From Paracoccus aminovorans (GTDB lineage Bacteria > Pseudomonadota > Alphaproteobacteria > Rhodobacterales > Rhodobacteraceae), in contig NZ_LN832559.1 in assembly GCF_900005615.1 (NCBI RefSeq), positions 960,837 through 1,024,836 on the forward strand: 64,000 bases of DNA, given 5' to 3'. The position numbers and the translations under genes are program-made. The notes below the pieces were generated by a model that saw nothing but the letters and a program-made list of their open reading frames with translations, searched no databases and had not been told where the DNA came from. Positions 5,705-64,000 of the stretch are shown here, one piece after another; the first letter of the stretch is position 1, and each line of letters starts with the position of its first letter.

Positions 5705-5780
<76 letters not shown>

Positions 5781-49924: not shown

Positions 49925-50590
49925 CTAGACGTTAGCGCAGGGCGGCGGGTCGATCCATTCCCCTTTGCGGTCGCCGAGGAAGTCCAGATAGAACGCGACC
50001 GTCTGGCCCTGCGCGTCGCCGAGACGAAAGAACTGGTAACCGCCGTCGCCGTAACCGCTTGAGGAGACCGCCATGCGCGTCCCATCGGGCAGGGTCACGA
50101 AGCTGGCGAAGGTTTGCAGCGGCAATTGCGGTTCGAGCGCGGTATAGGGGTCGCTGGCCTGGGCCTGCAACGAGTCGTAATAGAGGCTCATCGCCTCAAG
50201 GCCGGATCGGGTCACGATTGCGGCGAGGCCGGTATCCACGCCGACGACGCCCAGGGATTCGCCGCGGGCCGGCATGCCGTCAGCGGTGACCAGCGCGATG
50301 GCGGCTGCATAGGCGTAGCCGTCCTCACGCGCCAGCACGGCATAGAAACGCGCCTCCGGCGCTGCCGGGGTCGGCGCGGGCTTGGTGGCGAAGCCGGTCA
50401 GCGGGTCCAGCGCGACGATGCCGCTGCCGTCCAGCGGATAGGGGCCGATGTCGCGGCCGATGCGGTCGGGGTCGCCCGAACGGTCGATCAGCCATTGCAC
50501 CGCGCCCGGCAGCGCATCGGCCGCCGCTGGGCCGGTGCCGAGAAGGCAGGCGGTCAGCAGCAGCGCCGGCAGCGCGGCGCTTCGCGTCAA
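49925..50590 (-). CDS. Secreted protein of unknown function
   Basis: 221 residues with a signal peptide (about 24 residues, ending AAADA). The mature part contains PYPLDGSGIVALDPLTGF and a YGDGGYQFFRLGDAQGQTV region, with a single Cys three residues from the end. The family is not recognised. Its start overlaps the DUF2927 lipoprotein stop by four bases, so both belong to the telA-led operon. Confidence 0.7.
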   Translation of the reverse strand: MTRSAALPALLLTACLLGTGPAAADALPGAVQWLIDRSGDPDRIGRDIGPYPLDGSGIVALDPLTGFATKPAPTPAAPEARFYAVLAREDGYAYAAAIALVTADGMPARGESLGVVGVDTGLAAIVTRSGLEAMSLYYDSLQAQASDPYTALEPQLPLQTFASFVTLPDGTRMAVSSSGYGDGGYQFFRLGDAQGQTVAFYLDFLGDRKGEWIDPPPCANV

Positions 50591-51603
50591 ACCTCGGTCC
50601 CCAGCAGTTCGCGGGCGATCTGCAAGACGATGGGGCGGGCCTCGGCCTCGGTCATGCCGGGGCGCAGGCGCGGGTCGTAGAGGATTTTCAGCAACAGCTC
50701 GTCGTGGCGGGTCAGATAGGCGAATTCCTCGTCGTCGTTGAAGACCGAGGGCCGCGCGCGCGGGCTGTCGTTGGCAAGGCCCATGCCCTGCGCCAGTTCC
50801 TCATGCACGCAGGAGCGGCGCAGGCGGGGCGGCAGCTCGGCCCGGATCAGCGCCACCGCCTGCGAATAGACCGGCGAGTTGCCGCTGGAATAGGCGAAGA
50901 CCGTGCAATAGTTCTGCGGCGCCAGGTCGCGCAGGGCGGCGATGTCCCCTTCGGGGATGCCGGGGACCAGGCTGGCGAGCCTGGGGCCGATGGCGCGGCG
51001 CTCGTCCTCGTTGAGGATCAGCACGTTGAAATTGCCGGCGGCGCCGGTCAGCCCGACCGGATGGCCGCTGACCCGCTGCAGCCGGGCGGCGAAATCGGCG
51101 ATATCGGCGCGGTCGCGCGTGCGCTGCACCGGGGCGACCGAGTCGCCGAACTCCAGCCGGATCGCCACCGGCTGCTGCCAGCGGCGCAGCGGCGCGGGCG
51201 TCGGGCGCGAGATCAGCTTGCCGCCCTGGCGCAGGTATTCGTCATAGAGCGCGACCTCGACGAAATCCTCGGCCAGCTTCTCGGGAGTCATCGCGATGTC
51301 GCTGCCGTCGTCGGTGCGCAGACGGCCGCGTGCGATCAGCGCCTGTTCGACGCCGGCAAGATGGTCGCGCATGGTGCGGCTGGCGGGGCTGTTGGCGGCC
51401 ACCTCGGCCCTGGCGGCGGCCTCGCGCGCGGTTTCGGCGCGTTCGCGGCGCAGCGCGGCTTGGTCGGGGCGGGGTGTTTCGGGGCGCTGGGGCGGCGGCG
51501 CCTCGGCCGCGGGCGGCGGGGTCTGGGCCGGCGGCTGGTCCGAGCAGGCGGCCAGCGCCGCCAGCAGCGCGAGCGCCAGGCAGGGGCGGGCGATCCGGGT
51601 CAC
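50587..51603 (-). CDS. DUF2927-domain lipoprotein
   Basis: 338 residues from the GTG at 51603, which overlaps the telA stop (GTGA). The signal ends LAALAACS (lipobox). A Pro/Arg/Glu-rich linker to about residue 75 precedes the DUF2927 region, with NYCTVFAYSSGNSPVYSQAVALIRAELPPRLRRSCVHEELAQG in two pieces; the HEE motif in CVHEELAQ suggests a metallopeptidase-like site, though activity is unproven. DUF2927 proteins are common in Rhodobacterales envelopes. Confidence 0.8.
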   Translation of the reverse strand: MTRIARPCLALALLAALAACSDQPPAQTPPPAAEAPPPQRPETPRPDQAALRRERAETAREAAARAEVAANSPASRTMRDHLAGVEQALIARGRLRTDDGSDIAMTPEKLAEDFVEVALYDEYLRQGGKLISRPTPAPLRRWQQPVAIRLEFGDSVAPVQRTRDRADIADFAARLQRVSGHPVGLTGAAGNFNVLILNEDERRAIGPRLASLVPGIPEGDIAALRDLAPQNYCTVFAYSSGNSPVYSQAVALIRAELPPRLRRSCVHEELAQGMGLANDSPRARPSVFNDDEEFAYLTRHDELLLKILYDPRLRPGMTEAEARPIVLQIARELLGTEV

Positions 51604-52772
51604 GACGCTTGCGCCGGACTGGGGTTGCGGGCGCTGGCCGAGGCCAGGGTCTTGCGCAATTCGGCCTCCATGGCCTTGAGGTCCTCTTCGGCGGCGGCGC
51701 GGCGCGAGCGGCCTTCGTCGGCGATGCGCAGGCTGTCCTCGATGGTCGAGACCAGCTCGGCATTGGCGGTGCGCACGGCCTCGATGTCGAAGACGCCGCG
51801 TTCCAGCTGGGTGCGGATCTGGGCGTTCGCCTGGCGCAGGTTCTTGGCATTGGCCGTCAGCAGGTCGTTGGTCAGGTCGTTCGCCTCTTTGACCGCGCGG
51901 GCGGCCTCGGCGCTGCGCTGGATGGTGACGGCCTGCGCCAGCTGGGTTTCCCACAACGGCACCGTGTTCACCAGCGTGGAATTGATCTTGGTGACCAGCG
52001 ACTTGTCGTTTTCCTGCACCAGCCGGATCGAGGGCAGCGATTGCATGGTCACCTGCCGCGTCAGCTTCAGGTCGTGCACGCGCCGTTCCAGATCGTCGCG
52101 GGCAGACCGCAGGTCGCGCAGTTCCTGCGCGGCCATGACCTGGTCGGGCTCGGGCGCGGCCTCGACGGCGGCCTGCTTGGCGGGAAGGTCGTCGCGGTCG
52201 ATCCTTGCGAGCTTTTCCTCGCCCGCCGCGATATAGAGCGCGAGTTCGTCATAGAAGTTCAGCGTGCGGTCATAAAGCAGGTCCAGCGACTTGATGTCTT
52301 TCAACAGCCGGTGCTGGTGCTGGTCCAACTCGATGGTGATGCGGTCGATCTGGCCCTGCACCTGTTCGTAATTCGCGACGAATTTGGCGAAGGGCGCGGC
52401 GCGGCCCGTCAGCTTTTCCCACCAGCTGCGCTGGCGGCGCACGTCGAGCTCGCTGATGGAAAAGCCGCGGATGGTGGTCACGATCTGGCGCAGCGACTCG
52501 CCCGCGGGGCCGACGTCCTTGTTCCTGACGTCGGCCAGCATGGCTTGGCTGATTTCCTGCAGCTCGTTCTGGGCGCGGGCGCCGAAATGCACGATCGAGC
52601 CGGTGTCCTTCAGGTCGATCTCGTCCATGCGCCGGCGGATCGCCTCGGCGGTGGCGGCGTCGGCCTGCGCCAGCGAGGGCGCGGCGGCGGGCGGCTCGGG
52701 CAGGATCACGGAGGTCACGGTCTGGATCTCGTCCAGGGCAGCTGCGGCATTGGCCTGCGTCTGGGAGGTCAT
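51600..52772 (-). CDS. telA: TelA-family toxic-anion resistance protein
   Basis: 390 residues, almost all helical, full-length TelA. Diagnostic stretches are GFSISELDVRRQRSWWEKLTG, the NYEQVQGQIDRITIELDQHQ coiled coil and LVNTVPLWETQLAQAVTIQR. TelA is linked to tellurite and membrane-active antimicrobial resistance; the mechanism is not settled. First gene of a leftward run telA, DUF2927 lipoprotein, secreted protein, SPFH-GYF, zinc-ribbon. Confidence 0.9.
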   Translation of the reverse strand: MTSQTQANAAAALDEIQTVTSVILPEPPAAAPSLAQADAATAEAIRRRMDEIDLKDTGSIVHFGARAQNELQEISQAMLADVRNKDVGPAGESLRQIVTTIRGFSISELDVRRQRSWWEKLTGRAAPFAKFVANYEQVQGQIDRITIELDQHQHRLLKDIKSLDLLYDRTLNFYDELALYIAAGEEKLARIDRDDLPAKQAAVEAAPEPDQVMAAQELRDLRSARDDLERRVHDLKLTRQVTMQSLPSIRLVQENDKSLVTKINSTLVNTVPLWETQLAQAVTIQRSAEAARAVKEANDLTNDLLTANAKNLRQANAQIRTQLERGVFDIEAVRTANAELVSTIEDSLRIADEGRSRRAAAEEDLKAMEAELRKTLASASARNPSPAQAS

Positions 52773-52987
52773 CCGGTGTCGTCCTTTCCTGTGAAACTTG
52801 GGCGCGGTCGCAGAATAAGCCGATTCCCGGCGAGTTCAACGCGAGCGGGCGGCGAAAGTTGCCGTCGTCGCCGGGGTGTGGCGATCATGCCGGGCAGGTC
52901 CCTGGCCGCCGGTCCGCTTTGGGTTTGCGCGACCGGCGGGCGGCGTGTAGAACCTGCGCGATTGAGCCTTGGGAAGGAGCCCCTTGC

Positions 52988-54250
52988 ATGCGCAGAGTTG
53001 TCGTCACCGGATTGGGGATGGTCACGCCGCTGGCCTGCGGAGTCGAAGAGACCTGGACCCGGCTGCTGGCCGGAGAATCCGGCGCCGGACCGATCACCCG
53101 CTTCGACACCTCGGGCGTGCAGACGAAATACGCCTGCGAGATTCCCTTTGGCGACGGCACGGACGGCACCTTCAACCCCGACGAGTGGATGGAGCCCAAG
53201 GACCGGCGCAAGGTCGATGATTTCATCCTCTACGGCATGGCGGCCGCGACCCAGGCGGTGCGCGATTCCGGCTGGGAGCCGATGAGCGAGGCCGATTGCG
53301 AGCGCACCGGCGTGCTGATCGGTTCGGGCATCGGCGGGCTGTCGTCCATCGCCGACACCGCCGTGCTGATCAAGGAACGCGGCGCGAAGCGGGTCTCGCC
53401 CTTCTTCATTCCCGGGGCGCTGATCAACCTGGTCTCGGGCCAGGTGTCGATCCGCTTCGGCTTCAAGGGGCCGAACCATGCGGTGGTCACCGCCTGCTCG
53501 ACCGGCGCCCATGCCATCGGCGACGCGGCGCGGCTGATCATGCTGGGCGATGCCGACGTCATGGTCGCGGGCGGCACCGAAAGCCCGATCTGCGAGATCG
53601 GCATCGCCGGCTTCAACGCCTGCAAGGCGCTGTCGACCAAGCGCGAGGCCGACCCCAAGGCCGCCAGCCGCCCCTGGGACGAGGACCGCGACGGCTTCGT
53701 CATGGGCGAGGGCGCCGGCGTCGTCGTGCTCGAGGAATACGAGCACGCCAAGGCCCGCGGCGCCAAGATCTATGCCGAGATCCTGGGCTATGGCATGTCG
53801 GGCGACGCCTATCACATCACCGCCCCCAGCGAGGACGGCGACGGCGGTTTCCGCAGCATGACCAATGCCTTGGCGCGCGCGAACCTGTCGCCGGCCGATA
53901 TAGACTACATCAATGCGCATGGTACCTCGACCATGGCCGACGTGATCGAGCTGGGCGCGGTCGAGCGGCTCTTGGGCGATGCGGCGGGCAATGTGGTGAT
54001 GTCCTCGACCAAGTCGAGCATCGGGCACCTCTTGGGCGCGGCCGGTGCGGTCGAGGCGATCTTCTGCATTCTGGCGCTGCGCGACCAGATCTGCCCGCCG
54101 ACGATCAACCTGGACAACCAGGCGCGCGAATCCGCCATCGACCTGGCTGCCAATGCCGCCGTGCGCCGCAAGGTCGATTACGTGCTGTCGAACAGCTTCG
54201 GCTTCGGCGGCACCAACGCCAGCCTGGTGATGGGGCGGGTCCAGGAATGA
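52988..54250 (+). CDS. fabF: Beta-ketoacyl-ACP synthase II
   Basis: 420 residues from the ATG at 52988 (GGAAGGAG upstream). Thiolase fold with catalytic Cys170 (VTACSTGAHAIGDA) and the two His in NAHGTSTMADV and SIGHLLGAAG, plus the C-terminal NSFGFGGTNAS. It elongates acyl-ACP with malonyl-ACP in fatty-acid synthesis. Its stop overlaps the mltG start (ATGA), a common alphaproteobacterial pairing. Confidence 0.96.
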   Translation: MRRVVVTGLGMVTPLACGVEETWTRLLAGESGAGPITRFDTSGVQTKYACEIPFGDGTDGTFNPDEWMEPKDRRKVDDFILYGMAAATQAVRDSGWEPMSEADCERTGVLIGSGIGGLSSIADTAVLIKERGAKRVSPFFIPGALINLVSGQVSIRFGFKGPNHAVVTACSTGAHAIGDAARLIMLGDADVMVAGGTESPICEIGIAGFNACKALSTKREADPKAASRPWDEDRDGFVMGEGAGVVVLEEYEHAKARGAKIYAEILGYGMSGDAYHITAPSEDGDGGFRSMTNALARANLSPADIDYINAHGTSTMADVIELGAVERLLGDAAGNVVMSSTKSSIGHLLGAAGAVEAIFCILALRDQICPPTINLDNQARESAIDLAANAAVRRKVDYVLSNSFGFGGTNASLVMGRVQE

Positions 54251-55425
54251 TCTGGCGCCACATCGCGTCGAATTTCCTGACGCTGCTGATCGTGATCCTG
54301 ATCGCGGTCGCGGCGGCCATCGCCTGGGCCAAGCATCAATACGTGGCCCCGGGTCCCAGCGCCACCGCCGCCTGCGTGCGGGTGGCGCCGGGCGCCAGCC
54401 TGAGCGCGGTCAGCGAGCAGCTGGCCGATCAGGGCGTGGTCTCGAACGCCTATATCTTTCGGGCGGGCGCGGATTACGCCGGGAAATCGCGCGATCTGAA
54501 ATACGGCTCCTACCTGGTGCCGCCGAAGAGCAGCATGGAGGAGGTGGTGCGGGTCATCACCTCGGGCGGGCCTTCGACCTGCGGCACCGAGGTGATCTAT
54601 CGCATCGGCGTGCGCGAGAATTCGGTGATCCTGCGCGATACCGATGCCGAGACCGGCCAGATGGCCGAGCAGGCGAAATACAACCCCGCCACCGAGCCGG
54701 CGCCCGAACCCATCGCGGCTGCCGAGGCCAAGACCGACGTGCGGCTGCGCATCACCGTCGCCGAGGGGGTGACCAGCTGGCAGGTGGTCGAGGGGCTGAA
54801 GCAGGCCGGGTTCATGGCCGGCACGGTCGCCAAGCCGCCGGCCGAGGGCAGCCTCGCCCCCGACACCTACGACGTGCAGAAAGGCGCCGACCGCGCCGAA
54901 TTGCTGGCCGAAATGGCCCGGCGGCAGGCGGCGAACCTGGCTGCGGCCTGGGAGACGCGCCAGCCGGATCTGCCCTACAAGACGCCGCAAGAGGCGCTGA
55001 TCATGGCCTCGATCATCGAGAAGGAGACCGCGGTCCCCGACGAGCGCCGGCTGGTGGCCAGCGTCTTCGTCAACCGGATGCGGCGGGGGATGCGGCTGGA
55101 GACCGACCCGACGGTGATCTACGGCATCACCAAGGGCGAGGGCGTGTTGGACCGCGGCATCCGCGGCAGCGAACTGCGCCGCCGCACCCCCTATAACACC
55201 TACCAGGTCGACGGCCTGCCGCCAACGCCGATCGCCAACCCCGGCAAGGCTTCCATCGCGGCGGCGATGAACCCCGAGGATGCGGATTACGTATTCTTCG
55301 TCGCCGACGGCTCGGGCGGCCATGCCTTTGCGCGCACGCTCGAAGAGCACACCCAGAACGTGAAGCGCTGGCGGGAAATCGAGAAGCAACGCGGCCAGGC
55401 GATGTCTCCGGTGCAAGGGGACTAA
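54247..55425 (+). CDS. mltG: Endolytic murein transglycosylase MltG (YceG-like)
   Basis: 392 residues from the ATG at 54247. One N-terminal membrane helix (about 9-28), a LysM-like region, then the YceG domain with ALIMASIIEKETAV containing catalytic Glu258, LETDPTVIYGI and SPYNTY-type RTPYNTYQVDGLPPTPIANP. It cleaves nascent glycan strands at the inner membrane. Last housekeeping gene before the GTA cluster. Confidence 0.95.
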   Translation: MIWRHIASNFLTLLIVILIAVAAAIAWAKHQYVAPGPSATAACVRVAPGASLSAVSEQLADQGVVSNAYIFRAGADYAGKSRDLKYGSYLVPPKSSMEEVVRVITSGGPSTCGTEVIYRIGVRENSVILRDTDAETGQMAEQAKYNPATEPAPEPIAAAEAKTDVRLRITVAEGVTSWQVVEGLKQAGFMAGTVAKPPAEGSLAPDTYDVQKGADRAELLAEMARRQAANLAAAWETRQPDLPYKTPQEALIMASIIEKETAVPDERRLVASVFVNRMRRGMRLETDPTVIYGITKGEGVLDRGIRGSELRRRTPYNTYQVDGLPPTPIANPGKASIAAAMNPEDADYVFFVADGSGGHAFARTLEEHTQNVKRWREIEKQRGQAMSPVQGD

Positions 55426-55453
55426 CCGGGCAGCTGCGGGCCCGGGCTTGCGG

Positions 55454-55474
55454 CTTTCCGTTTTTCAAATACCC
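55454..55474 (+). repeat. Dispersed 21-bp element, copy 6
   Basis: CTTTCCGTTTTTCAAATACC followed by C, 28 bp after the mltG stop. CCGGGC and GCCCGG just upstream could pair, making hairpin plus element the mltG terminator. Confidence 0.75.
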
Positions 55475-55609
55475 CGGCGGCAGGATTCGCAGGCGATTCC
55501 GGGGCCGATTGCGCCCTGTTGCGCGCAGCGCACGCCGGGGTGTTGCGCGGCACAATTCACTGATTATGAAAGGAATTTAACGCGAGATTAATCAACCATT
55601 GGTTTTGCG

Positions 55610-55638
55610 TTGACTCAGCGAACGCCCTAAAGTAGAAA
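55610..55638 (+). promoter_or_regulatory. GTA cluster promoter
   Basis: TTGACT (55610-55615), 17 bp, TAGAAA (55633-55638), within an AT-rich stretch that contrasts with its flanks. Predicted start near 55645, about 100 bp before g1. The AT-rich upstream segment 55555-55609 is where activator sites would be expected. The 320-bp gap 55426-55745 holds no gene. Confidence 0.7.
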
Positions 55639-55662
55639 TTATCCATGCTGGGAGAAATGGGC

Positions 55663-55697
55663 AAGCGGCCGGGTCGGTGACCCGAGGCCGCTTTTTT
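55663..55697 (+). terminator. Intrinsic terminator in the GTA leader
   Basis: AAGCGGCC-g-GGTC-ggt-GACC-cga-GGCCGCTT followed by six T: a strong stem and uridine tract lying between the promoter (start about 55645) and g1 (55746). Transcription would stop after roughly 50 nt unless anti-termination occurs. Confidence 0.85.
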
Positions 55698-55745
55698 CAT
55701 GTCTCGCTCGTGCGGACAGGCACACGAGGGCAGGGCGACACACGA

Positions 55746-56108
55746 ATGACGATGAATTTCGATCCGGGGCCGGAGGCTCCGGAAGGGCCTTTCGTGCCCG
55801 GCGCCGGCATGGCGCCTGACATGAGCGTGGTCGAGATCGCGGATGGGCTGTTCTGGTCCTATGCGGCGGATCTGGACCGGCTTCGCCGCAAGATCACGGC
55901 GGGCGAGACCGACGATTTGAAGGAATCCGGCAAGCTGGTGCGCGCCCTGCGGGACGCGACCCAGATGGTGCTGGAGGAAAGGAACAAGGTTGACAAGCTT
56001 CGCAAGGATGCTGCCGGACAGGTCGGTGCAGGCGCACTCGACCTTGTCGCGGCACGAGATGAAATCGGGCGCCGCCTGGCTTGCCTCCGCCGAGCCGGAG
56101 GAAGTTGA
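55746..56108 (+). CDS. GTA small terminase subunit (g1)
   Basis: 120 residues from the ATG at 55746 (second ATG at 55752). Acidic N-terminus, then a helical region with LFWSYAADLDRLRRKI and a coiled coil (MVLEERNKVDKLRKDAA). It matches GTA gp1, the TerS-like DNA-packaging protein, by position and composition. The large terminase start lies inside its 3' end. Confidence 0.82.
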   Translation: MTMNFDPGPEAPEGPFVPGAGMAPDMSVVEIADGLFWSYAADLDRLRRKITAGETDDLKESGKLVRALRDATQMVLEERNKVDKLRKDAAGQVGAGALDLVAARDEIGRRLACLRRAGGS

Positions 56109-57399
56109 CGAATTCCTGGGGGGCCTCAGCGACAATGCCTTGGCCGCCTTGCCCTGGTTGTTCGAGTTCTGGGCGCTGCCGCATCAGCTGCCGCCCGAGG
56201 GCGACTGGAAGACCTGGGTCATCATGGGCGGGCGCGGCGCGGGCAAGACCCGGGCCGGGTCCGAATGGGTGCGCGCGCAGGTCGAGGGGCCGACGCCGGA
56301 CGCGCCGGGCCTGGCGCATCGCGTGGCGCTGGTGTCCGAGACCTTCGATCAGGCGCGGGACGTGATGGTCTTTGGCGAGTCGGGCATTCTGGCCTGCTCG
56401 CCCCCCGACCGGCGCCCGGTCTGGGAGGCCGGGCGGCGCCGGCTGCTCTGGCCGAATGGCGCGACCGCGCAGGTCTATTCGGCGCATGAGCCCGAGGCGT
56501 TGCGCGGGCCTCAGTTCGACGCGGCCTGGGTCGACGAGTTGGCGAAGTGGAAGAAGGCCGATGACAGCTGGGACATGCTGCAATTCGCGCTGCGGCTCGG
56601 GCAGCATCCGCAGCAGGTCGTCACCACCACGCCGAAGAACGTCGGGGTGCTGAAGCGGATTCTGGGCAATGCCTCGACAGTCACGACCTATGCGCCGACC
56701 GATGCGAACCGCGCCTATCTGGCCGAGAGCTTCCTGGCCGAGGTCGAGGCGCGCTATGCCGGCACGCGGCTGGGCCGGCAGGAGCTGGAAGGCCTGCTGC
56801 TGGAGGATGTCGAGGGGGCGCTGTGGACCACCGGAATGGTCGAGCGCTGTCGGGTCGAGGCTTGCCCGAAGCTGTCGCGCATCGTGGTCGCGGTCGATCC
56901 GGCGGTGACCTCGGGCGCGGCTTCGGACGAATGCGGCATCGTCGTGGCGGGCGTGGTCAGCGAGGGGCCGGTCACCGACTGGCGGGCCTATGTGCTGGAG
57001 GACGCCTCGATCCGGGGCGGGCCGGTGGACTGGGCGCGGGCCGTCATCGCAGCGATGCAGCGCCACGGTGCCGAGCGGCTGGTGGCCGAGGTCAACCAGG
57101 GCGGCGACCTGGTCGAGAGCGTGATCCGCCAGGTCGATCCGCTGGTGCCGTTCCGGGCCTTGCGGGCCGGGCGCGGAAAGGGCTTGCGGGCCGAGCCGGT
57201 CGCGGCGCTTTACGAGCAGGGCCGGGTGCATCACCTGCGGGGCCTGGGCGCGCTGGAGGACCAGATGTGCCGCATGAGCGTCGCGGGCTATGAGGGCAAG
57301 GGCTCGCCCGACCGGCTGGATGCCCTGGTCTGGGCGATCCACGAGCTGGTGATCGAGCCGGGAGCGGCCTGGCGGCGGCCGGCGGTGCGGGGCCTTTAG
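56059..57399 (+). CDS. GTA large terminase (g2)
   Basis: 446 residues if started at the ATG 56059; other in-frame starts are the ATG at 56008 and TTG at 55990, all inside g1. The chosen start gives the short N-terminus usual for GTA gp2. ATPase domain: Walker A GGRGAGKT (57-64) and Walker B AAWVDE (Glu160). Nuclease domain begins IVVAVDPAVTSG. It packages host DNA into GTA particles. Confidence 0.92.
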   Translation: MKSGAAWLASAEPEEVDEFLGGLSDNALAALPWLFEFWALPHQLPPEGDWKTWVIMGGRGAGKTRAGSEWVRAQVEGPTPDAPGLAHRVALVSETFDQARDVMVFGESGILACSPPDRRPVWEAGRRRLLWPNGATAQVYSAHEPEALRGPQFDAAWVDELAKWKKADDSWDMLQFALRLGQHPQQVVTTTPKNVGVLKRILGNASTVTTYAPTDANRAYLAESFLAEVEARYAGTRLGRQELEGLLLEDVEGALWTTGMVERCRVEACPKLSRIVVAVDPAVTSGAASDECGIVVAGVVSEGPVTDWRAYVLEDASIRGGPVDWARAVIAAMQRHGAERLVAEVNQGGDLVESVIRQVDPLVPFRALRAGRGKGLRAEPVAALYEQGRVHHLRGLGALEDQMCRMSVAGYEGKGSPDRLDALVWAIHELVIEPGAAWRRPAVRGL

Positions 57400-57413
57400 G
57401 GGGCTCTGCCCCC

Positions 57414-57450
57414 ACGTTTCGGTGGCCCCTCGATGGGGCCGCCGAAACGT
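57414..57450. repeat. Long near-perfect hairpin after g2
   Basis: ACGTTTCGG-t-GGCCCC, 5-nt loop, GGGGCC-g-CCGAAACGT: 16 paired positions including one T-G. No T-run directly follows; instead CCCCCGGGG and a dispersed element do. It is symmetric enough to act on either strand. Confidence 0.8.
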
Positions 57451-57457
57451 TCCCCCG

Positions 57458-57478
57458 GGGTATTTGGCAAACGGAAAG
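57458..57478 (-). repeat. Dispersed 21-bp element, copy 7 (inside the GTA cluster)
   Basis: Plus-strand GGGTATTTGGCAAACGGAAA followed by G. Same family as the copies in ordinary intergenic regions, here between g2 and g3. Confidence 0.75.
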
Positions 57479-57524
57479 AAGGGCCTTGCGGGGCCCGCGG
57501 AGGGTCGCGGTTGCGGCCCTTTTT
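57479..57524 (+). terminator. Terminator-like structure between g2 and g3
   Basis: Outer stem AAGGGCC/GGCCCTT (57479-57485 with 57515-57521) enclosing an inner CCGCG/CGCGG stem, followed by TTTTTC. It precedes the portal gene by 23 bp. Confidence 0.6.
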
Positions 57525-57547
57525 CATTGGACATTCAGGAGGGACCG

Positions 57548-58732
57548 ATGGCATTTCCCTGGTTCGGGCGAGCGGCTGCGCCCGCTGTCGAGGTCGAGAG
57601 AAAGGCCAGCGCCGCGGGCAAGGTGGTGGCGCTGGCGGCAGGCTCGGGGCGGGTGGTCTGGTCGCCGCGCGACACGGTCAGCCTGACCCATGCCGGTTTT
57701 GTCGGCAATCCGGTCGGGTTCCGTGCCGTGCGGCTGATCGCCGAGGCCGCCGCCGCCGTGCCGCTGGTCTGCCAGGACCGCGAGCGGCGCTATGACATGC
57801 ATCCGGTCCTGGACCTGTTGCGGCGGCCCAATGCCGGGCAGGGCCGGGCCGAGCTGTTCGAGGCGCTGTTCGGGCAGGTCCTGCTGAGCGGCAACGGCTA
57901 TCTGGAGGCCGTGGGCGAGGGCGCCAAGGGGCTGCCGGCCGAGCTGCATGTGCTGCGCTCGGACCGGATGGCGGTGGTGCCGGGCGAGGATGGCTGGCCC
58001 TCGGCCTATGAATATGCGGTGGGCGGGCGCAAGTACCGTTTCGACATGGCGGGCAGTCCGGATCCGATCTGCCATATCCGCAGCTTCCATCCGCTGGACG
58101 ATCATTACGGCTTGTCGCCGATGCAGGCGGCGGCGGTGGCGGTGGATGTGCACAACAGCGCGTCGGGCTGGTCGAAGGCGCTGCTGGACAACGCGGCGCG
58201 GCCGAGCGGGGCCATCGTATACAAGGGGGCGGATGGGCAGGGCAGCCTGTCGCCCGACCAGTATGACCGGCTGGTGACCGAGATGGAGATGCACCACCAG
58301 GGCGCGCGGAACGCCGGGCGGCCGATGCTGCTGGAGGGCGGGCTCGACTGGAAGCCGATGGGGTTCTCGCCCAGCGACATGGAGTTTCACGAGACGAAGC
58401 TGGCGGCGGCGCGGGAGATTGCGCAGGCCTTTGGCGTGCCGCCGATGCTGATCGGCATTCCGGGCGAGGCGACCTATGCCAATTACGCCGAGGCGCATCG
58501 GGCGTTTTACCGGCTGACCGTGCTGCCTCTGGTGGCGCGGGTGGCGAGTGCGGTGGCCTGGTGGTTGTCCGAGCATCTGGGCGCCGAGATCGATCTGCGG
58601 GCCGATCCGGACCAGGTTCCGGCCCTGGCCGAGGAGCGCGACAGCCATTGGCGGCGGATCGATGCGGCGAGTTTCCTGACCGAGGCCGAGAAGCGCGCCG
58701 CCTTGGGGCTGCCGCCGCTGGCGGAGGGCTGA
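57548..58732 (+). CDS. GTA portal protein (g3)
   Basis: 394 residues from the ATG at 57548 (AGGAGGG 6-8 nt before). HK97-type portal: VGFRAVRLIAEAAAAVPLV, a GNGYLEAVGEG strand, HIRSFHPLDDHYGLSPMQAA, and IAQAFGVPPMLIGIPGEATYANYAEAHRAFYRLT in two pieces. It forms the dodecameric DNA gate of the capsid. The preceding 148-bp gap carries hairpins unlike the otherwise tightly packed cluster. Confidence 0.95.
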   Translation: MAFPWFGRAAAPAVEVERKASAAGKVVALAAGSGRVVWSPRDTVSLTHAGFVGNPVGFRAVRLIAEAAAAVPLVCQDRERRYDMHPVLDLLRRPNAGQGRAELFEALFGQVLLSGNGYLEAVGEGAKGLPAELHVLRSDRMAVVPGEDGWPSAYEYAVGGRKYRFDMAGSPDPICHIRSFHPLDDHYGLSPMQAAAVAVDVHNSASGWSKALLDNAARPSGAIVYKGADGQGSLSPDQYDRLVTEMEMHHQGARNAGRPMLLEGGLDWKPMGFSPSDMEFHETKLAAAREIAQAFGVPPMLIGIPGEATYANYAEAHRAFYRLTVLPLVARVASAVAWWLSEHLGAEIDLRADPDQVPALAEERDSHWRRIDAASFLTEAEKRAALGLPPLAEG

Positions 58733-58733
58733 G

Positions 58734-58967
58734 ATGGAGGGCTCGCGCTTCGTCAAGGAGCCCTTCGACTGGCACGACCAGCGCTTCGACACGCAGGAGC
58801 GGATCATGGCGCTGCAATTCGGCCAGGTCGAGCGGCGGCTGGAGCGGATCGAGGGGCTGATCGAGGGGCTGGAGCGGCGGCTGTGGATGACGGTCTATGG
58901 CGTCGTCGCCGTGATCCTGACCCAGGCGGTGCAGTCGATCCTGAGTTTTACGCCGAAAGGAGGCTGA
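58734..58967 (+). CDS. GTA gp3.5-like small protein
   Basis: 77 residues, one base after the portal stop. An acidic/aromatic start, a charged coiled coil (QVERRLERIEGLIEGLERRL) and a C-terminal membrane helix (WMTVYGVVAVILTQAVQSIL). It occupies the position of RcGTA orfg3.5, whose role is unclear; the coiled coil plus helix is holin- or anchor-like, an inference only. Confidence 0.78.
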   Translation: MEGSRFVKEPFDWHDQRFDTQERIMALQFGQVERRLERIEGLIEGLERRLWMTVYGVVAVILTQAVQSILSFTPKGG

Positions 58968-58968
58968 C

Positions 58969-59508
58969 ATGGATTCAAAGGATTACGGGCTGGAGCTGAA
59001 ATATGCGGCCGGCGCGGCGCTGGTGTCGGACGGCACGCAGCTTGAGGGCTATGCGAGCCTGTTCGGCCTGACCGACCAGGGCGGCGACATTGTCGTCAGG
59101 GGCGCCTATGCCACCAGTCTGAAGCGGCTGCAGGCGCGCGGCGACAAGGTGCGGATGCTGTGGCAGCACGATCCCGCCCGGCCTATCGGCGTCTGGGACG
59201 AGATCCGCGAGGACGACAAGGGGTTGTGGGTCAAGGGGCGGCTTCTGCCCGAGGTGGCGCAGGCCCGCGAGGCGGCGGCGCTGATCGAGGCGGGTGCCAT
59301 CGACGGGCTGTCGATCGGCTATCGCACCGTCGCGGCCGAGCGCGACGGCAAGGGCCGGCGGATGCTTTCCGAGGTCGAGCTGTGGGAGGTGTCGCTGGTC
59401 ACCTTCCCGATGCTGGCCGAGGCCAAGGTCGGGCGTAAGGCCGATGCGGGGCTGAACGAGATGGCGGCGGCCTTTCGGGCCGCGACCAAGGCGCTGCGCG
59501 CCGAGTGA
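58969..59508 (+). CDS. GTA HK97-family prohead protease (g4)
   Basis: 179 residues. Family motifs GYASLFGLTDQGGD, MLWQHDPARPIGVW with catalytic His67, and GLSIGYRT with catalytic Ser115 are intact. It removes the capsid protein's N-terminal scaffold domain during head maturation. It follows g3.5 immediately and precedes the capsid gene by 22 bp. Confidence 0.93.
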   Translation: MDSKDYGLELKYAAGAALVSDGTQLEGYASLFGLTDQGGDIVVRGAYATSLKRLQARGDKVRMLWQHDPARPIGVWDEIREDDKGLWVKGRLLPEVAQAREAAALIEAGAIDGLSIGYRTVAAERDGKGRRMLSEVELWEVSLVTFPMLAEAKVGRKADAGLNEMAAAFRAATKALRAE

Positions 59509-59530
59509 GTTTCACCAAACGGAGGGGACG

Positions 59531-60697
59531 ATGACCGAGGTGAAAGCCGCGGCCGGGGCGGACATGCCCGGCGACCTGGGGGCCGAGATACTGGGGTTCG
59601 TGAACGAACTCAAGGTTTTCCGCACCGACATTCAGAAACGACTGGAAGCACAGGAACAACGCATGACCATGCTGGACCGCAAGACCCTTTCCCGCGCCCG
59701 CGCCCCTCTGTCGGCCGAGGCCGATCAGGGCGCGCCGCATCAGAAGGCCTTCGACGCCTATATCCGCCATGGCGACGACGGTGCGCTGCGCGGCCTGCCG
59801 CTGGAAGGCAAGGCGATGACCTCGACCTCGGACGGCGGCTTCCTGGCGGCGCCGACGGTGGCCTTGCAGGTGCAGGACGCGCTGAACGTCACCGCCTCGT
59901 TGCGCCGGGTGGCCAATGTCGTGGCCGTCGAGTCCGCCACCTTCGAGATGCTGGTCGACATGGGAGACATCGCCAGCGGCTGGGCGACCGAGACCGGCGC
60001 GCAGGCCGAGACCGGCACCTCGACCGTGCAGCGCGTGGTGATCCCGGTGCATGAGCTGTCGGCCATGCCCAAGGCCAGCCAGCGCCTGCTGGACGACGCG
60101 GCCTTCGACGTGGAAAGCTGGCTGGCCGGCCGCATCGCCGAGAAATTCGCCCGCGCCGAGGCCACGGCATTCATCAGCGGCGACGGCGTCAATAAGCCCA
60201 AGGGTTTCCTGACCCATGCCAAGGCCGCCAATGCCAGCGCGACCAATGTGCAGATCGGCACCATTCCTTCGGGTGGCGACGGCGATTTCGCGGCGACCAA
60301 CCCGGCCAATGCGCTGATCGATCTGGTCTATGCGCTGGGTGCGCAATACCGCGCCAATGCGAGCTTCGTGATGAACTCGAAAACCGCCGCCGCCGTGCGC
60401 AAGATGCGCGATACCGACGGCCGCTTCCTGTGGGCCGACAGCCTGGCGATGGGCCAGCCGCCGCAACTGCTGGGCTATCCGGTGCTGCTGTGCGAGGACA
60501 TGCCGGATATCGCGCGCGGGTCGTTCTCGATCGCCTTCGGTGACTTCCGCTCGGCCTATACCATCGTTGAGCGTCCGGATCTGCGGGTGCTGCGCGATCC
60601 CTTCTCGGCCAAGCCGCATGTGCTGTTCTATGCCACCAAGCGTGTCGGCGGGGGCGTGACCGATGCCCGCGCCATCAAGCTGATGGTCTTCGGCTGA
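59531..60697 (+). CDS. GTA major capsid protein (g5)
   Basis: 388 residues, HK97 fold. The N-terminal ~100 residues form the coiled-coil delta domain (ELKVFRTDIQKRLEAQEQRM) cleaved by the protease. The mature part begins around the Ala/Gly-rich STSDGGFLAAPTV and contains VIPVHELSAMPKASQRLLDD and the C-terminal FYATKRVGGGVTDARAIKLM. Builds the capsid shell. A very strong terminator-like hairpin follows. Confidence 0.95.
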   Translation: MTEVKAAAGADMPGDLGAEILGFVNELKVFRTDIQKRLEAQEQRMTMLDRKTLSRARAPLSAEADQGAPHQKAFDAYIRHGDDGALRGLPLEGKAMTSTSDGGFLAAPTVALQVQDALNVTASLRRVANVVAVESATFEMLVDMGDIASGWATETGAQAETGTSTVQRVVIPVHELSAMPKASQRLLDDAAFDVESWLAGRIAEKFARAEATAFISGDGVNKPKGFLTHAKAANASATNVQIGTIPSGGDGDFAATNPANALIDLVYALGAQYRANASFVMNSKTAAAVRKMRDTDGRFLWADSLAMGQPPQLLGYPVLLCEDMPDIARGSFSIAFGDFRSAYTIVERPDLRVLRDPFSAKPHVLFYATKRVGGGVTDARAIKLMVFG

Positions 60698-60711
60698 TCC
60701 AAGGCCGAAGC

Positions 60712-60793
60712 GGGGGCCGCGCGGGCGATGCCCGACGAACCGGCCAAGCAACTGTCCGCACGCGCGACGGCGGGCATGCGCGGCCCCCTTTTT
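60712..60793 (+). terminator. Strong terminator-like hairpin between g5 and g6
   Basis: Perfect 11-bp stem GGGGGCCGCGC (60712-60722) / GCGCGGCCCCC (60778-60788), extended inward by ATGCCCG/CGGGCAT and followed by TTTTT (60789-60793). Outer CCAAGG/CCTTGG can also pair. It begins 14 bp after the capsid stop. Confidence 0.82.
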
Positions 60794-60836
60794 CCGCCCT
60801 TGGGATGCAGGTTCCGTGCGAACGGGAGAGATGAAG

Positions 60837-61451
60837 ATGATGCTTGTGGAATTGACGGCGCCCGCCATAGAGGCGCTGCCCGTCGCAGGATTGCGCGACC
60901 ACCTGCGGTTGGGAACCGGCTTTGACATGGCCGTGGACGCGGCCGAGACCGCCGCGCTGGCGGGCTTCCTGCGCGCCGCCATCGCCACCATCGAGGCGCG
61001 GACCGGCAAGGTGCTGCTGACGCGGCAGTTCCGGCTGCGGCTGGAGGAGTGGCGCGACCCGGAGGGCCAGCCCTTGCCGCTGGCGCCGGTCGGCAGCGTC
61101 GAGCGGGTCGAGATCACCGATGCGGCCGGCGTCGTCGTGCCGGTCGAGGGGGGCTGGCGGCTGGTGCAGGACACGCAGCGGCCGATGCTGCTGCCGGTCG
61201 GAGCATGGCTGCCGACCGTCCCGAGCGGCGGCTTCGTGACGGTGACCTTTTCGGCCGGGTTCGGACCCTGGTGGGACTCGGTGCCGGCGGACCTGGCGCA
61301 GGCGGTGCTGATGCTCGCCGCGCGCTATCACGAGGATCGCAGCTTCGAGGGCAGCCAGGGCGCGATGCCTTTCGGCGTCAGCGCGCTGATCGAGCGCTGG
61401 CGCTCGGTGCGGGTGCTGGGAGGGCGCGGTGGTTCGCGCGGCCGGGCATGA
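60837..61451 (+). CDS. GTA head-tail connector protein (g6)
   Basis: 204 residues from the ATG at 60837, 8 nt after GGGAG; nearby ATGs at 60831 and 60840 are also in frame. Features of phage connector gp6 families: an N-terminal LRDHLRLGTGFD helix, a middle beta region, and VTFSAGFGPWWDSVPADLAQAVLMLAARYHEDR in two pieces. It joins portal and tail. It is the first gene after the internal hairpin and overlaps g7 by four bases. Confidence 0.88.
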   Translation: MMLVELTAPAIEALPVAGLRDHLRLGTGFDMAVDAAETAALAGFLRAAIATIEARTGKVLLTRQFRLRLEEWRDPEGQPLPLAPVGSVERVEITDAAGVVVPVEGGWRLVQDTQRPMLLPVGAWLPTVPSGGFVTVTFSAGFGPWWDSVPADLAQAVLMLAARYHEDRSFEGSQGAMPFGVSALIERWRSVRVLGGRGGSRGRA

Positions 61452-61798
61452 GCGCGCCGCGGCTGACGGTGCCGCTGGTGGTCGAGACGCCGGTGCGCGA
61501 GCCGGACGGGATGGGCGGGTTCCGGCTGGCCTGGCAGGATGTCGGGCAGCTTTGGGCCGAGATGCGGTCGGGCGCGGGGGCCGAGCGTTTCGCCGAGGTG
61601 GGGGCGCAGAGCGTCGTCGCCTGGCGGATCACCGTCAGGGCGGCGCCTGCCGGCGACGCGCGGCGCCCGCGCCCGGAGCAGAGGTTCCGCATGGGCGAGG
61701 GGGCCGCAGCGCGGCGCTTTCGCATCGAGGCGGTGGCCGAGGCGGATACCTTGGGCCGCTGGCTGGTCTGCGTCGCGAAAGAGGAGTCCCTGGCATGA
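61448..61798 (+). CDS. GTA head-tail adaptor (g7)
   Basis: 116 residues from the ATG at 61448 (ATGA overlap with g6). Head-closure/adaptor fold (phage_H_T_join type): a beta-rich small protein with DGMGGFRLAWQDVGQLWAEM and the closing RFRIEAVAEADTLGRWLVC. Closes the connector above g6. Overlaps g8 by four bases. Confidence 0.87.
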   Translation: MSAPRLTVPLVVETPVREPDGMGGFRLAWQDVGQLWAEMRSGAGAERFAEVGAQSVVAWRITVRAAPAGDARRPRPEQRFRMGEGAAARRFRIEAVAEADTLGRWLVCVAKEESLA

Positions 61799-62214
61799 GC
61801 TATGCAGCGACAGCCGCGCTTCAGGCGGCGGTCTATGAGGCCCTGCGCGGCAGCACACCGCTGCACGACCTGGTCGGCGACGCGATCTATGACGCAATGC
61901 CGGTCGCGGCGCCCACCGGCACCTATGTCGCGCTGGGCCCCGAGGAGGTCCGCGACGCCGGCGACATGACGGCGGCGGGGGCGAACCATGATTTCGTGGT
62001 CTCGGTCCTGTCGGGATCGGACGAGGCGAGCGGCTTCGGCTCGATCAAGGCGGCGGCGGTCGCGGTCTCGGATGCGCTGGAGGCGGCAGAGATCGGGCTG
62101 AGCCGCGGGCATCTGGTGGCGCTGTGGTTCCTGCGCGCCCGCGCGCGGCGGGCCGAGAATGGCGCGGGGCGGCGGGTCGACCTGACCTTTCGCGCGCGCA
62201 TTGACCTGGGTTGA
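61795..62214 (+). CDS. GTA tail terminator-like DUF3168 protein (g8)
   Basis: 139 residues. LQAAVYEALRGSTPLHDLVG and AIYDAMPVAAPTGTYVALGP are the DUF3168 signature; members cap the tail tube in tailed phages. The start overlaps g7 and a 12-bp gap precedes g9. Confidence 0.88.
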   Translation: MSYAATAALQAAVYEALRGSTPLHDLVGDAIYDAMPVAAPTGTYVALGPEEVRDAGDMTAAGANHDFVVSVLSGSDEASGFGSIKAAAVAVSDALEAAEIGLSRGHLVALWFLRARARRAENGAGRRVDLTFRARIDLG

Positions 62215-62226
62215 GGAGAGACGGAC

Positions 62227-62640
62227 ATGGCGGTGCAGAACGGACGCGACCTGCTGATCAAGATGGACATGACCGGCGACGGCCAGTTCGAGACCATCGC
62301 GGGCCTGCGCGCGACCCGGCTGGGGTTCAATGCCGAGACGGTGGATGTGACGAGCCTGGAGAGCGAGGGCCGCTGGCGCGAGCTGCTGGGCGGTGCGGGC
62401 GTGCGCTCGGCCAGCATCTCGGGCTCGGGCGTGTTCCGGGACGGGACCACGGACGAGCGGGCGCGGCAGGTTTTCTTTGACGGCGAGGTGCCGCGATTCC
62501 AGGTGGTGATCCCGGATTTCGGCGTGGTCGAGGGGGCGTTCCAGATCACCTCTCTGGAATATGCGGGCAGTTACAATGGCGAGGCGACCTATGAGATTTC
62601 CATGGCCAGCGCGGGCGTCATCAGCTTCGTCGCGTTCTGA
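62227..62640 (+). CDS. GTA major tail protein (g9)
   Basis: 137 residues of the TP901-1-like tail-tube family: AVQNGRDLLIKMDMTGDGQF, EGRWRELLGGAGVRSASISG and EYAGSYNGEATYEISMASAG. Polymerises into the tail tube. Followed by g10 after a single base. Confidence 0.92.
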   Translation: MAVQNGRDLLIKMDMTGDGQFETIAGLRATRLGFNAETVDVTSLESEGRWRELLGGAGVRSASISGSGVFRDGTTDERARQVFFDGEVPRFQVVIPDFGVVEGAFQITSLEYAGSYNGEATYEISMASAGVISFVAF

Positions 62641-62641
62641 T

Positions 62642-62959
62642 ATGGTCAATCCGCTGGCGGGCGAGGTCGAGGTCGTGCTGGACGGCCGGGCGCATGTCGC
62701 CAAGTTGACCTTGGGCGCCTTGGCGGTGCTTGAGGCCGAATTGGGCGCCGAGAGCATGATCGCGCTGGTCGAGCGGTTCGAGAGCGGCCGCTTTTCCAGC
62801 CGCGACGTGCTGGCCGTCCTGGTCGCGGGCCTGCGCGGCGGCGGCTGGGCGGGCGGCATGGACGAGCTGATAGCGACCGAGTTCAAGGGCGGGCCGGTGG
62901 GCGCCGCCCATGCAGCGGCGGCGCTGCTGGCGCGGGCCTTTCGCATCGAGGGCACATGA
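62642..62959 (+). CDS. GTA tail assembly protein (g10)
   Basis: 105 residues from the ATG at 62642. AGEVEVVLDGRAHVAKLTLG and ALAVLEAELGAESMIALVER fit the GTA gp10 tail-chaperone family. Its end overlaps g10.1 by four bases, an arrangement reminiscent of the G/GT tail chaperone pair, but no slippery frameshift heptamer was seen. Confidence 0.85.
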   Translation: MVNPLAGEVEVVLDGRAHVAKLTLGALAVLEAELGAESMIALVERFESGRFSSRDVLAVLVAGLRGGGWAGGMDELIATEFKGGPVGAAHAAAALLARAFRIEGT

Positions 62960-63168
62960 GCGCCGGGCTGGACTGGCCCGGCCTGTTGCGCATGGGCATC
63001 GGGCCGGCGCGGCTGGGCGGGCTGGGGCTGACTCCTGCCGCGTTCTGGGCGCTGACCCCGGCCGAGCTGGCGCTGATGCTGGGGATCGAGCCGGGCAAGG
63101 GCGGTGCGATGACCCGCAATCGCCTGGCCGAGCTGGTCGCGCGCTATCCCGACCGGCCAGCAGGCTGA
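62956..63168 (+). CDS. GTA tail assembly chaperone (g10.1)
   Basis: 70 residues: LRMGIGPARLGGLGLTPAAF, WALTPAELALMLGI, then NRLAELVARYP. This is the DUF2376-type phage tail assembly chaperone found between g10 and g11. It is coupled to g10 by the ATGA overlap. Confidence 0.87.
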   Translation: MSAGLDWPGLLRMGIGPARLGGLGLTPAAFWALTPAELALMLGIEPGKGGAMTRNRLAELVARYPDRPAG

Positions 63169-63192
63169 AACATCCAAGAAGGAGGCGCCGTC

Positions 63193-63861
63193 GTGGCGAA
63201 CAAGGACGGATTCGACCGGCTGGACGAGGACGGCCCGGTGAACCTGGGCAAGAGCATGGACCAGACCGGCCGCATGACGGCGGAGTTCGAGGCCGAGCTG
63301 GCCCGGCTGCGCGAGTCGATGGTCTATACTGGCCGCGAGGTCGGCACGCTGACCCAGGGCATCGGCAGCGGGCTGCGCCGGGCGTTCTCGGGGCTGGTCT
63401 TCGACGGGCTGAAACTGAGCGACGCCTTGAAGGGTATCGCGCGCAGCATGGCGGACACGGCGTTTTCCGTGGCGATGAAGCCGATCGAGCAGGCCCTGGC
63501 GGGGGCGATCGCGCAGGGGGTGAACGGTATGGTTTCCGGCGCGCTGCCCTTTGCCAATGGCGGGGCGTTCTCGCAGGGGCGGGTGCTGCCGTTCGCCAAG
63601 GGTGGCGTGGTCAGCCAGCCGACCTATTTCCCGATGCGCGGCGCGACCGGGCTGATGGGCGAGGCTGGGGCCGAAGCGATCATGCCACTGCGGCGCGGTG
63701 CCGATGGCCGGCTGGGCGTCGCCTCGGCAGGGGGCGGGGGCCGGGCGGTGAACGTGACCTTCAATGTCTCGACCCCCGATGTGTCGGGGTTCCAGCGCAG
63801 CCAAAGCCAGATCGCCTCGCAACTGGGGCGGTTGTTGGCGCGCGGCGAAAGGAACGGGTGA
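63193..63861 (+). CDS. GTA tape-measure protein (g11)
   Basis: 222 residues from a GTG at 63193 with GGAGG upstream. A helical N-terminal half (AEFEAELARLRESMVYTGRE), then Gly-rich blocks FANGGAFSQGRVLPFAKGGV and GLMGEAGAEAIMPLRRGADG typical of tape-measure C-termini. The short length fits the very short tail of GTAs. Confidence 0.9.
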   Translation: MANKDGFDRLDEDGPVNLGKSMDQTGRMTAEFEAELARLRESMVYTGREVGTLTQGIGSGLRRAFSGLVFDGLKLSDALKGIARSMADTAFSVAMKPIEQALAGAIAQGVNGMVSGALPFANGGAFSQGRVLPFAKGGVVSQPTYFPMRGATGLMGEAGAEAIMPLRRGADGRLGVASAGGGGRAVNVTFNVSTPDVSGFQRSQSQIASQLGRLLARGERNG

Positions 63862-63864
63862 TCC

Positions 63865-64000
63865 ATGGCTTTTCACGAGATCAGGTTCCCGGCGAACCTG
63901 TCCTTCGGCTCGGTCGGCGGGCCGGAACGGCGGACCGAAATCGTCGCACTGACCAACGGCCACGAAGAACGCCGCACGCCCTGGGCGCATTCGCGTCGGC
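63865..64000 (+). CDS. GTA g12 (DUF2460 family), 5' part only
   Basis: Starts at the ATG 63865, 3 bp after g11, and runs off the right edge. The first ~45 residues, AFHEIRFPANLSFGSVGGPE followed by RRTEIVALTNG, match the N-terminus of DUF2460 (TIGR02217) proteins, the distal tail component encoded by GTA orfg12. Confidence 0.88.
   Translation, partial: MAFHEIRFPANLSFGSVGGPERRTEIVALTNGHEERRTPWAHSRR

Follow-up and report, generated by a model that had tools for sequence, protein, structure and literature searches.

We analysed a 64,000-nucleotide stretch of Paracoccus aminovorans DNA (contig NZ_LN832559.1, positions 960,837 to 1,024,836; hereafter the window), which we take to hold a GTA cluster because the product of its g5 gene matches the solved GTA capsid of Rhodobacter capsulatus (6tba, E 8.3e-150). 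Read directly, the sequence before the cluster holds a promoter (TTGACT-N17-TAGAAA), a hairpin, six T residues and g1, in that order. A sequence-only reading of the same DNA had placed the promoter here, a start near 55645, the hairpin and T6 at 55663-55697 and g1 at 55746, and we found each of them where it had put them. The features are as follows.

55426 to 55609, plus strand: gap between mltG and the promoter, in which a scan found a separate terminator-like hairpin for mltG (stem 55432-55455, T-rich tail next; –21.5 kcal/mol in L001)
55610 to 55615, plus strand: –35 element TTGACT (of the first 110 homologous regions, 100 have TTGAC at the equivalent position)
55616 to 55632, plus strand: 17-nt spacer with a conserved CGNNCG (55619-55624), a candidate GafA-binding element by analogy with ZBE, ABE and QBE
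55633 to 55638, plus strand: –10 element TAGAAA (first two bases T 0.95, A 0.98)
55644 to 55649, plus strand: –10-like hexamer CATGCT at –1 to +5, a candidate sigma-dependent pause element; the predicted +1 is A55645
55645 to 55662, plus strand: conserved initially transcribed region ATGCTGGGAGAAATGGGC, from sequence comparison
55663 to 55697, plus strand: intrinsic terminator, a bulged GC-rich hairpin (55663-55693) and T6 (55692-55697)
55707 to 55728, plus strand: second inverted repeat, CTCGTG...CACGAG, just before g1, recurring in many leaders
55746 to 56108, plus strand: g1, the first GTA gene, ATG at 55746, taken as the small terminase (TerS; name as in PMC9638019; tblastn against relatives)
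55990 to 57399, plus strand: g2, terminase large subunit (ORF as listed, with the start given in the ORF list)
59531 to 60697, plus strand: g5, GTA major capsid protein

From 55663 the hairpin reads AAGCGGCCGGGTC-GGT-GACCC-GA-GGCCGCTT; it had been described as uninterrupted, which does not hold, as the stem carries a 2-nt bulge (GA). The stem has a folding energy of –21.6 kcal/mol, and a 56-nt RNA from +1 folds at –25.3 kcal/mol (z = –2.55; equalled by 4 of 200 dinucleotide shuffles). A simple promoter and terminator scan returned no promoters and nine terminator-like sites in 50000-64000, none of them at 55663, probably because of the GA bulge and a –10 element without T at its sixth base. 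mltG ends at 55425, 238 bp upstream of the hairpin (earlier put at about 240 bp), with the separate mltG hairpin in between. The leader element has a single strong copy in the window's genome (93.2 bits in a covariance model, as compared to 16.9 for the runner-up), and the exact sequence TTGACTNNNCGAACG is found there once. When we compared the window with the curated covariance models of Rfam, no riboswitch or small-RNA family was found at the leader; the sole match in the window is a tRNA gene (5708-5780, minus strand).

Related leaders came from a terminase search of 61 relatives (48 matched) and 198 family genomes (174 matched). The first set comprised 110 upstream regions, 30 from relatives and 80 from family genomes, with 35 belonging to Paracoccus and 75 to other genera; because these 75 were hand-picked from the terminase matches, leaning to better matches and finished genomes, we added 60 further genera, and 135 of the 172 other-genus genomes with a terminase match are now covered. 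One rule was applied to all 170 regions, and the architecture was counted as whole when TTGAC, CANGNT at the start site, a hairpin and a T-tract were present. In this census, the architecture was whole in 33 of 35 leaders from Paracoccus, 93 of 135 from other genera and none of 675 shuffled regions; by batch, it was present in 60 of the first 75 other genera as compared to 33 of the 60 further ones. For nine first-batch loci TTGAC was picked by hand, and an automatic rescan gave identical totals (33/35, 60/75). TTGAC with a hairpin, whether or not CANGNT is present, is found in 34 of 35 leaders from Paracoccus and 103 of 135 from other genera (shuffled regions 2/675), with 1 of 35 and 10 of 135, respectively, having both without CANGNT. 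The other 32 of the 135 do not have TTGAC plus hairpin (23 neither, 9 TTGAC only), in a count where L126, L130 and L395 qualify through hairpins that do not resemble the leader hairpin and where L389, lying just outside the scanned zone, is entered as none, yet is matched by the covariance model. That model matches 40 of the 60 further genera (E < 1e-5).

Among the first 110 regions, TTGAC is missing from L108, L115, L131, L133, L136-L139, L141 and the truncated L147; L115 and L131 have a hairpin with a T-tract despite this, and L084 and L144 are TTGAC-anchored without a good hairpin. A hairpin at least as stable as –15 kcal/mol followed by a T-tract is present in 98 of the 100 TTGAC-anchored leaders as compared to 28 of 500 dinucleotide shuffles. 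The T-run has 4-7 residues in 94 of 98 leaders measured, and its end lies at a median of +53 (range +40 to +57). The leader element is the common state of the family, and between about one quarter and one third of the sampled genera have lost or replaced it. The sequence-only reading had proposed to check whether the order of promoter, hairpin and T-tract is conserved in other GTA leaders, and it is so in the 34 Paracoccus and 103 other-genus leaders and in two strains of R. capsulatus (DSM 1710 and SP108, where promoter, CATGCT, hairpin and T6 are present), which argues that promoter and terminator are a conserved unit.

An independent set was drawn with a pattern for the promoter and start region from which the hairpin was excluded; it matched 77 IMG/VR records, and 75 of the 77 then show a hairpin (–12 kcal/mol or better) and a T-tract (74 distinct stretches). 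The covariance model R1 matches 71 of 73 named GTA loci (E < 1e-5), the two R. capsulatus strains included; L284 and L294 have no match and L246 is matched at an unexpected place. These 73 are what was searched of 80 named loci, with L241, L251, L252, L279, L289, L298 and L306 omitted because their sequence upstream of the capsid gene is shorter than 3 kb. In the family survey, the leader model matches 23 genomes, with a single copy in each. In a class-wide sample of 142 genomes, the model matches the window's genome and, weakly, one other, and none of 11 regions upstream of GTA-like terminases outside the family has TTGAC-N16..19-TA. In the samples examined, the leader element belongs to this family, the Rhodobacteraceae. 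The weak match is in a genome of another alphaproteobacterial family (G382; L338:6001-6099, minus strand, E 4e-4), about 0.7 kb before the terminase. Terminator-like hairpins in four of the outside-family regions (L341, L343, L344 and L347) were set aside, as they are unlinked to such a promoter.

To describe how the stem varies, we used two alignments. In a MAFFT alignment of 50 leaders (hand-chosen from the 100 anchored ones, ten of them Paracoccus, with L084, L105, L126, L130 and L144 dropped as outliers), 98.0% of cells are paired in the six-pair lower stem, four of the six pairs change on both sides, and the covariation score is 0.216 as compared to 0.120 when shuffled and a maximum of 0.151 when slid. 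In a model-fitted alignment of 70 divergent leaders (matched out of 71 loci chosen to enrich divergent stems, so that pair counts lean towards the model), 98.1% of cells pair and all six pairs show two-sided change; 74 cells have such change as compared to 14.9 in shuffles, and the score is 0.644 as compared to 0.210 shuffled and at most 0.193 when slid by 1-3 columns. The bare count of two-sided pairs is less telling (6 as compared to 4.4, a value of 6 being reached by 59 of 500 shuffles). Examples of compensating stems are AAGCGGCC/GGCCGCTT in the window, AAGCGCAA/TTGCGCTT in R. capsulatus, AAGCAGTC/GGCTGCTT and AAGCCGCC/GGCGG. An arm-swap test was set aside in favour of these two alignments, as some right arms were mis-registered where a later T-run was chosen.

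Upstream of the terminator, two further stretches are conserved. The four fixed bases of the spacer CGNNCG stand at 0.88-0.96 over 218 leaders, which is notable because a plain spacer should vary. The start-site hexamer has the consensus CAWGCT at –1 to +5, with +1 counted seven bases after the –10 element; over the same 218 leaders its C is at 0.97 and its A at 0.98, with G and T close to 1.00, to which the selecting pattern contributes by fixing them in part. Selection of these leaders relied in part on patterns in which TTGAC and portions of the start region were set; the C and A at –1 and +1 and the spacer bases were free. When the 50-leader alignment is anchored on TTGAC, the C, A, G and T of the hexamer are invariant, which holds for that set, where several divergent leaders are omitted. 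L135 (CATACT) and L145 (CAGACT) fail CANGNT yet keep A+1 and T+5. By sequence, CANGNT accompanies promoter and hairpin in the same 33 Paracoccus and 93 other-genus leaders counted above as whole.

The spacer and hexamer resemble elements of known antitermination systems. In AlpA and Q systems, the binding element lies between –35 and –10, and an early-transcribed –10-like hexamer holds sigma70 and pauses polymerase (PMC9371919). The alpB promoter of Pseudomonas aeruginosa has CACGAT at –1 to +5, changes of A+1 or T+5 harm antitermination, and an intrinsic terminator lies downstream; AlpA and its promoter are like the present leader in hexamer with A+1 and T+5 and in terminator, and its binding element has a candidate counterpart in the spacer here (PMC9371919). 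Lambda Q with PR'-tR' would be alike in its short early RNA, promoter-proximal terminator, sigma-dependent pause and promoter-loaded antiterminator (PMC9371919). The lambda Q protein is unrelated to GafA. The lambda terminator also lies farther from the start than the leader terminator here (about +53), and we know of no relation between GafA and AlpA.

Also close is the GTA cluster promoter P-gtaT of Caulobacter crescentus with its activators GafY and GafZ, which correspond to the N- and C-terminal portions of GafA (DUF6456); that system has a binding element in the spacer, for which the present leader has a candidate, and uses anti-termination, as proposed here (PMC11150451). GafZ requires an element located between –35 and –10 and enables polymerase to run past terminators, and according to Tran and Le the predicted GafZ resembles none of the known antiterminators that they name (PMC11150451). 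In contrast to the Paracoccus leader, which has a near-consensus –35 and an intrinsic terminator before g1, the Caulobacter –35 is degenerate and the terminator is made up of three direct repeats, each ~150 bp long and GC-rich, that follow the first gene (PMC11150451). We found no such repeats in the window (no direct repeat of at least 40 bp in 55600-57500). When the Caulobacter –35 was made near-consensus, activity was about sixfold lower and the promoter was active with or without GafYZ (PMC11150451); given this swap, the near-consensus –35 in the window points to control after initiation.

Taken together, these data suggest, with a probability of roughly 0.63, that the leader is a promoter-proximal termination and anti-termination switch of the Q, AlpA and GafZ working type. 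RNA would start at A55645 from a sigma70-type promoter whose –35 is near consensus, and RNA polymerase would pause where the –10-like hexamer surrounds the start site. If GafA is absent, polymerase would stop at 55692-55697 and give a short RNA of ~53 nt; with GafA on the spacer element, the paused polymerase would be modified, read through the hairpin and continue into g1 and the rest of the GTA cluster. What speaks for this switch are the promoter-like elements, the conserved spacer and hexamer, the covarying terminator, the single strong copy and the presence of a GafA gene. The anti-termination proposed in the sequence-only reading is thereby supported in part: promoter and terminator are a conserved unit with an antiterminator-type start-site hexamer and spacer element, neither of which that reading mentions, and we infer that the promoter has basal activity, that polymerase pauses and terminates there in vivo, and that GafA is what overrides the stop. 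The –10 element departs strongly from consensus and may support only weak basal initiation, which counts against the switch, as do the 32 other-genus leaders lacking TTGAC plus hairpin and the leaders kept without a capsid match; the 60 further genera, which fared worse in the census, lowered our confidence slightly, from 0.66 to 0.63. If true, the switch would account for the silence, in most cells, of a lethal gene cluster whose –35 is near consensus.

Read-through might instead be set independently of GafA, either by translation of a leader peptide or by alternative RNA pairing that involves the start region, the hairpin and the second inverted repeat. The sequence after the T-tract, CATTTCTC in many leaders and CATGTCTC in the window (55698-55705), complements the start region GAGAAATG (window 55652-55659; one mismatch in the window), and this pairing can lengthen the terminator stem. 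Many leaders carry the second inverted repeat in the form CTCTCGTGC...GCATGAGAG just before g1, near the presumed ribosome-binding site. Folding energy gives no support to an alternative fold through either of these, as the post-terminator region, second inverted repeat included, folds no better than shuffles (median z –0.12). A leader peptide from +1, MLGEMGKRPGR*, which looked plausible in Paracoccus, was rejected, since its ATG is not conserved (CATGCT is in only 60 of 100 anchored leaders), and the absence of an Rfam riboswitch match also speaks against such attenuation, which we consider very improbable.

The switch assigns the overriding role to GafA, which in the window's genome is a protein of 394 aa with DUF6456, 89% identical to a protein of Paracoccus sp. 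N5. DUF6456 is present in 269 of 295 family genomes. By hand count over 48 family genomes, the leader model matches 22 of 34 with DUF6456 and 0 of 14 without, a comparison that ignores kinship and in which 34 of the 48 were chosen for having no good terminase match; one genome with a leader and no DUF6456 match (G174, leader L073) is an exception. A DUF6456 match is present in each of the 15 first-batch genera whose architecture is not whole, indicating that GafA does not require the leader architecture. In leader-less genomes, the DUF6456 match is weaker (median –log10 E 50.3, n = 11, as compared to 61.9, n = 61), in a hand-collated comparison of the first batch only that ignores kinship, leaves out L115, L131 and G174 and counts L126 as leader-less.

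Of five R. capsulatus probes, GafA was reported to bind a single one; it lies 76-125 bp upstream of g1 and includes the –10 and the transcription start site reported by RNA-seq, with binding resolved to the probe and not to single bases (PMC6363796, PMC9638019). When we mapped this probe (–125 to –76 of g1), we found that it takes in the final two bases of TTGACA at one end and reaches the base of the hairpin at the other, with the hairpin and T-run at –76 to –45; the mapping takes the ATG at offset 129 as the g1 start, in a sequence that is not of the papers' strain. PMC9638019 states that the bound fragment also contains the –35, which fits our mapping only in part. With the start site anywhere inside the probe, the RNA must cross the terminator. 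The RcGTA promoter is the same element as the one in the window, published as an activator-bound promoter (PMC6363796, PMC9638019); the main texts of these two papers contain no word beginning with 'terminat'. Among the matches listed from titles and abstract openings in the open-licence literature, we found no description of a terminator in a Rhodobacterales GTA leader. The roles so far given to GafA are those of activator, possible sigma factor and omega-subunit partner, with anti-termination suggested only by the Caulobacter analogy: the discussion section of PMC11150451 already raises it as a possibility for R. capsulatus GafA and, in the portion cited, describes no leader terminator. With a conserved covarying terminator and a start-site element in the style of Q and AlpA, this idea can now be tested by specific base changes.

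GafA has been reported as a promoter-binding activator that works through the omega subunit (PMC11150451, PMC6363796, PMC9638019), and this would suit an insulating role for the hairpin, in which it blocks read-through from mltG and leaky starts while GafA only activates the promoter and overwhelms a leaky terminator. Only 28 of 100 leaders have a second terminator-like hairpin between mltG and the promoter, which may leave the leader hairpin as the sole barrier in many of them, and some GTA clusters manage without the hairpin. However, the hairpin lies downstream of the start at a nearly fixed distance, so that it would cut the promoter's own RNA, the window has its separate mltG hairpin, and insulation leaves the conserved start-site hexamer and spacer unexplained. 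We therefore consider insulation unlikely. Activation through the omega subunit could nonetheless account for GTA control with no part played by the terminator, which counts against the switch.

Natural cases in which GTA control without the stop could be studied are L360, L368 and L372, in which the start region is recognisable and the T-tract or hairpin is lost. The genome with L360 (G099) matches the model though its T-tract is gone, so a model match does not prove a working terminator. L137, L138, L139, L141, L401 and L404 have no leader terminator and share another conserved leader stretch, ACAGGCAANNAAGGTRTCGAG, before g1.

We also examined 17 family genomes chosen for an absent, weak or broken terminase together with a leader match. 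In 16 of the 17 the hairpin is intact (it is disrupted in L333), and these hairpins differ in sequence and still pair. For the capsid, 11 of the genomes have no match, five have only distant ones (at most 42% identity) and G168 has one at 60%. By tblastn, g1 or terminase sequence still lies downstream of the leader in 14 of the 17 loci; L334 and L337 have an apparent g1 start after the leader and L333 has none. Leaders kept without a capsid match indicate that the element can persist after the particle is lost. This weakens the case for a purely GTA-structural role; the leader may serve functions that are not specific to GTAs, and the question of other controlled targets is raised.

This retention also keeps alive the idea that the leader is a small-RNA gene, the ~53-nt RNA being the main product that acts in trans and GTA read-through being secondary, as hairpins of varying sequence go on pairing in genomes where the terminase is defective and the capsid match absent or distant. 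Yet g1 or terminase sequence follows the leader in most of these loci, so a role in cis is possible, and there is a single copy per genome (23 genomes), no Rfam family match and a hairpin whose sequence varies freely, unlike the seed of a base-pairing small RNA; we rate this idea as improbable.

In some of the loci read, the GTA leader is followed by a fusion gene that joins the N-terminal ~185 residues of the terminase large subunit to the C-terminal half of the GTA 'megatron' (g15). Its positions within the numbered loci are:

L322, 614 to 3151: terminase-megatron fusion gene
L330, 630 to 3128: terminase-megatron fusion gene
L325, from 648: terminase-megatron fusion gene

The fusion gene is widespread and lies under the GTA leader in the loci read. 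More tentatively, and with more doubt than belief on our part, much of the family, RcGTA included, might be gated after initiation, with GafA as a GafZ-like processive antiterminator acting at a sigma-dependent pause and a ~53-nt terminated RNA made constitutively; capsid-less lineages would then keep the leader for the fused terminase-ATPase/megatron gene or as the RNA itself.

The junction VDE-x-GCA is common to three of seven loci checked, all from genomes without a capsid match. The terminase domain PF03237 occurs together with PF13550 and PF13547 in 118 of the 120 matches listed (of 5200), and the fusion-gene hosts among the matches listed include Ruegeria, Roseovarius, Thioclava, Sulfitobacter and others.
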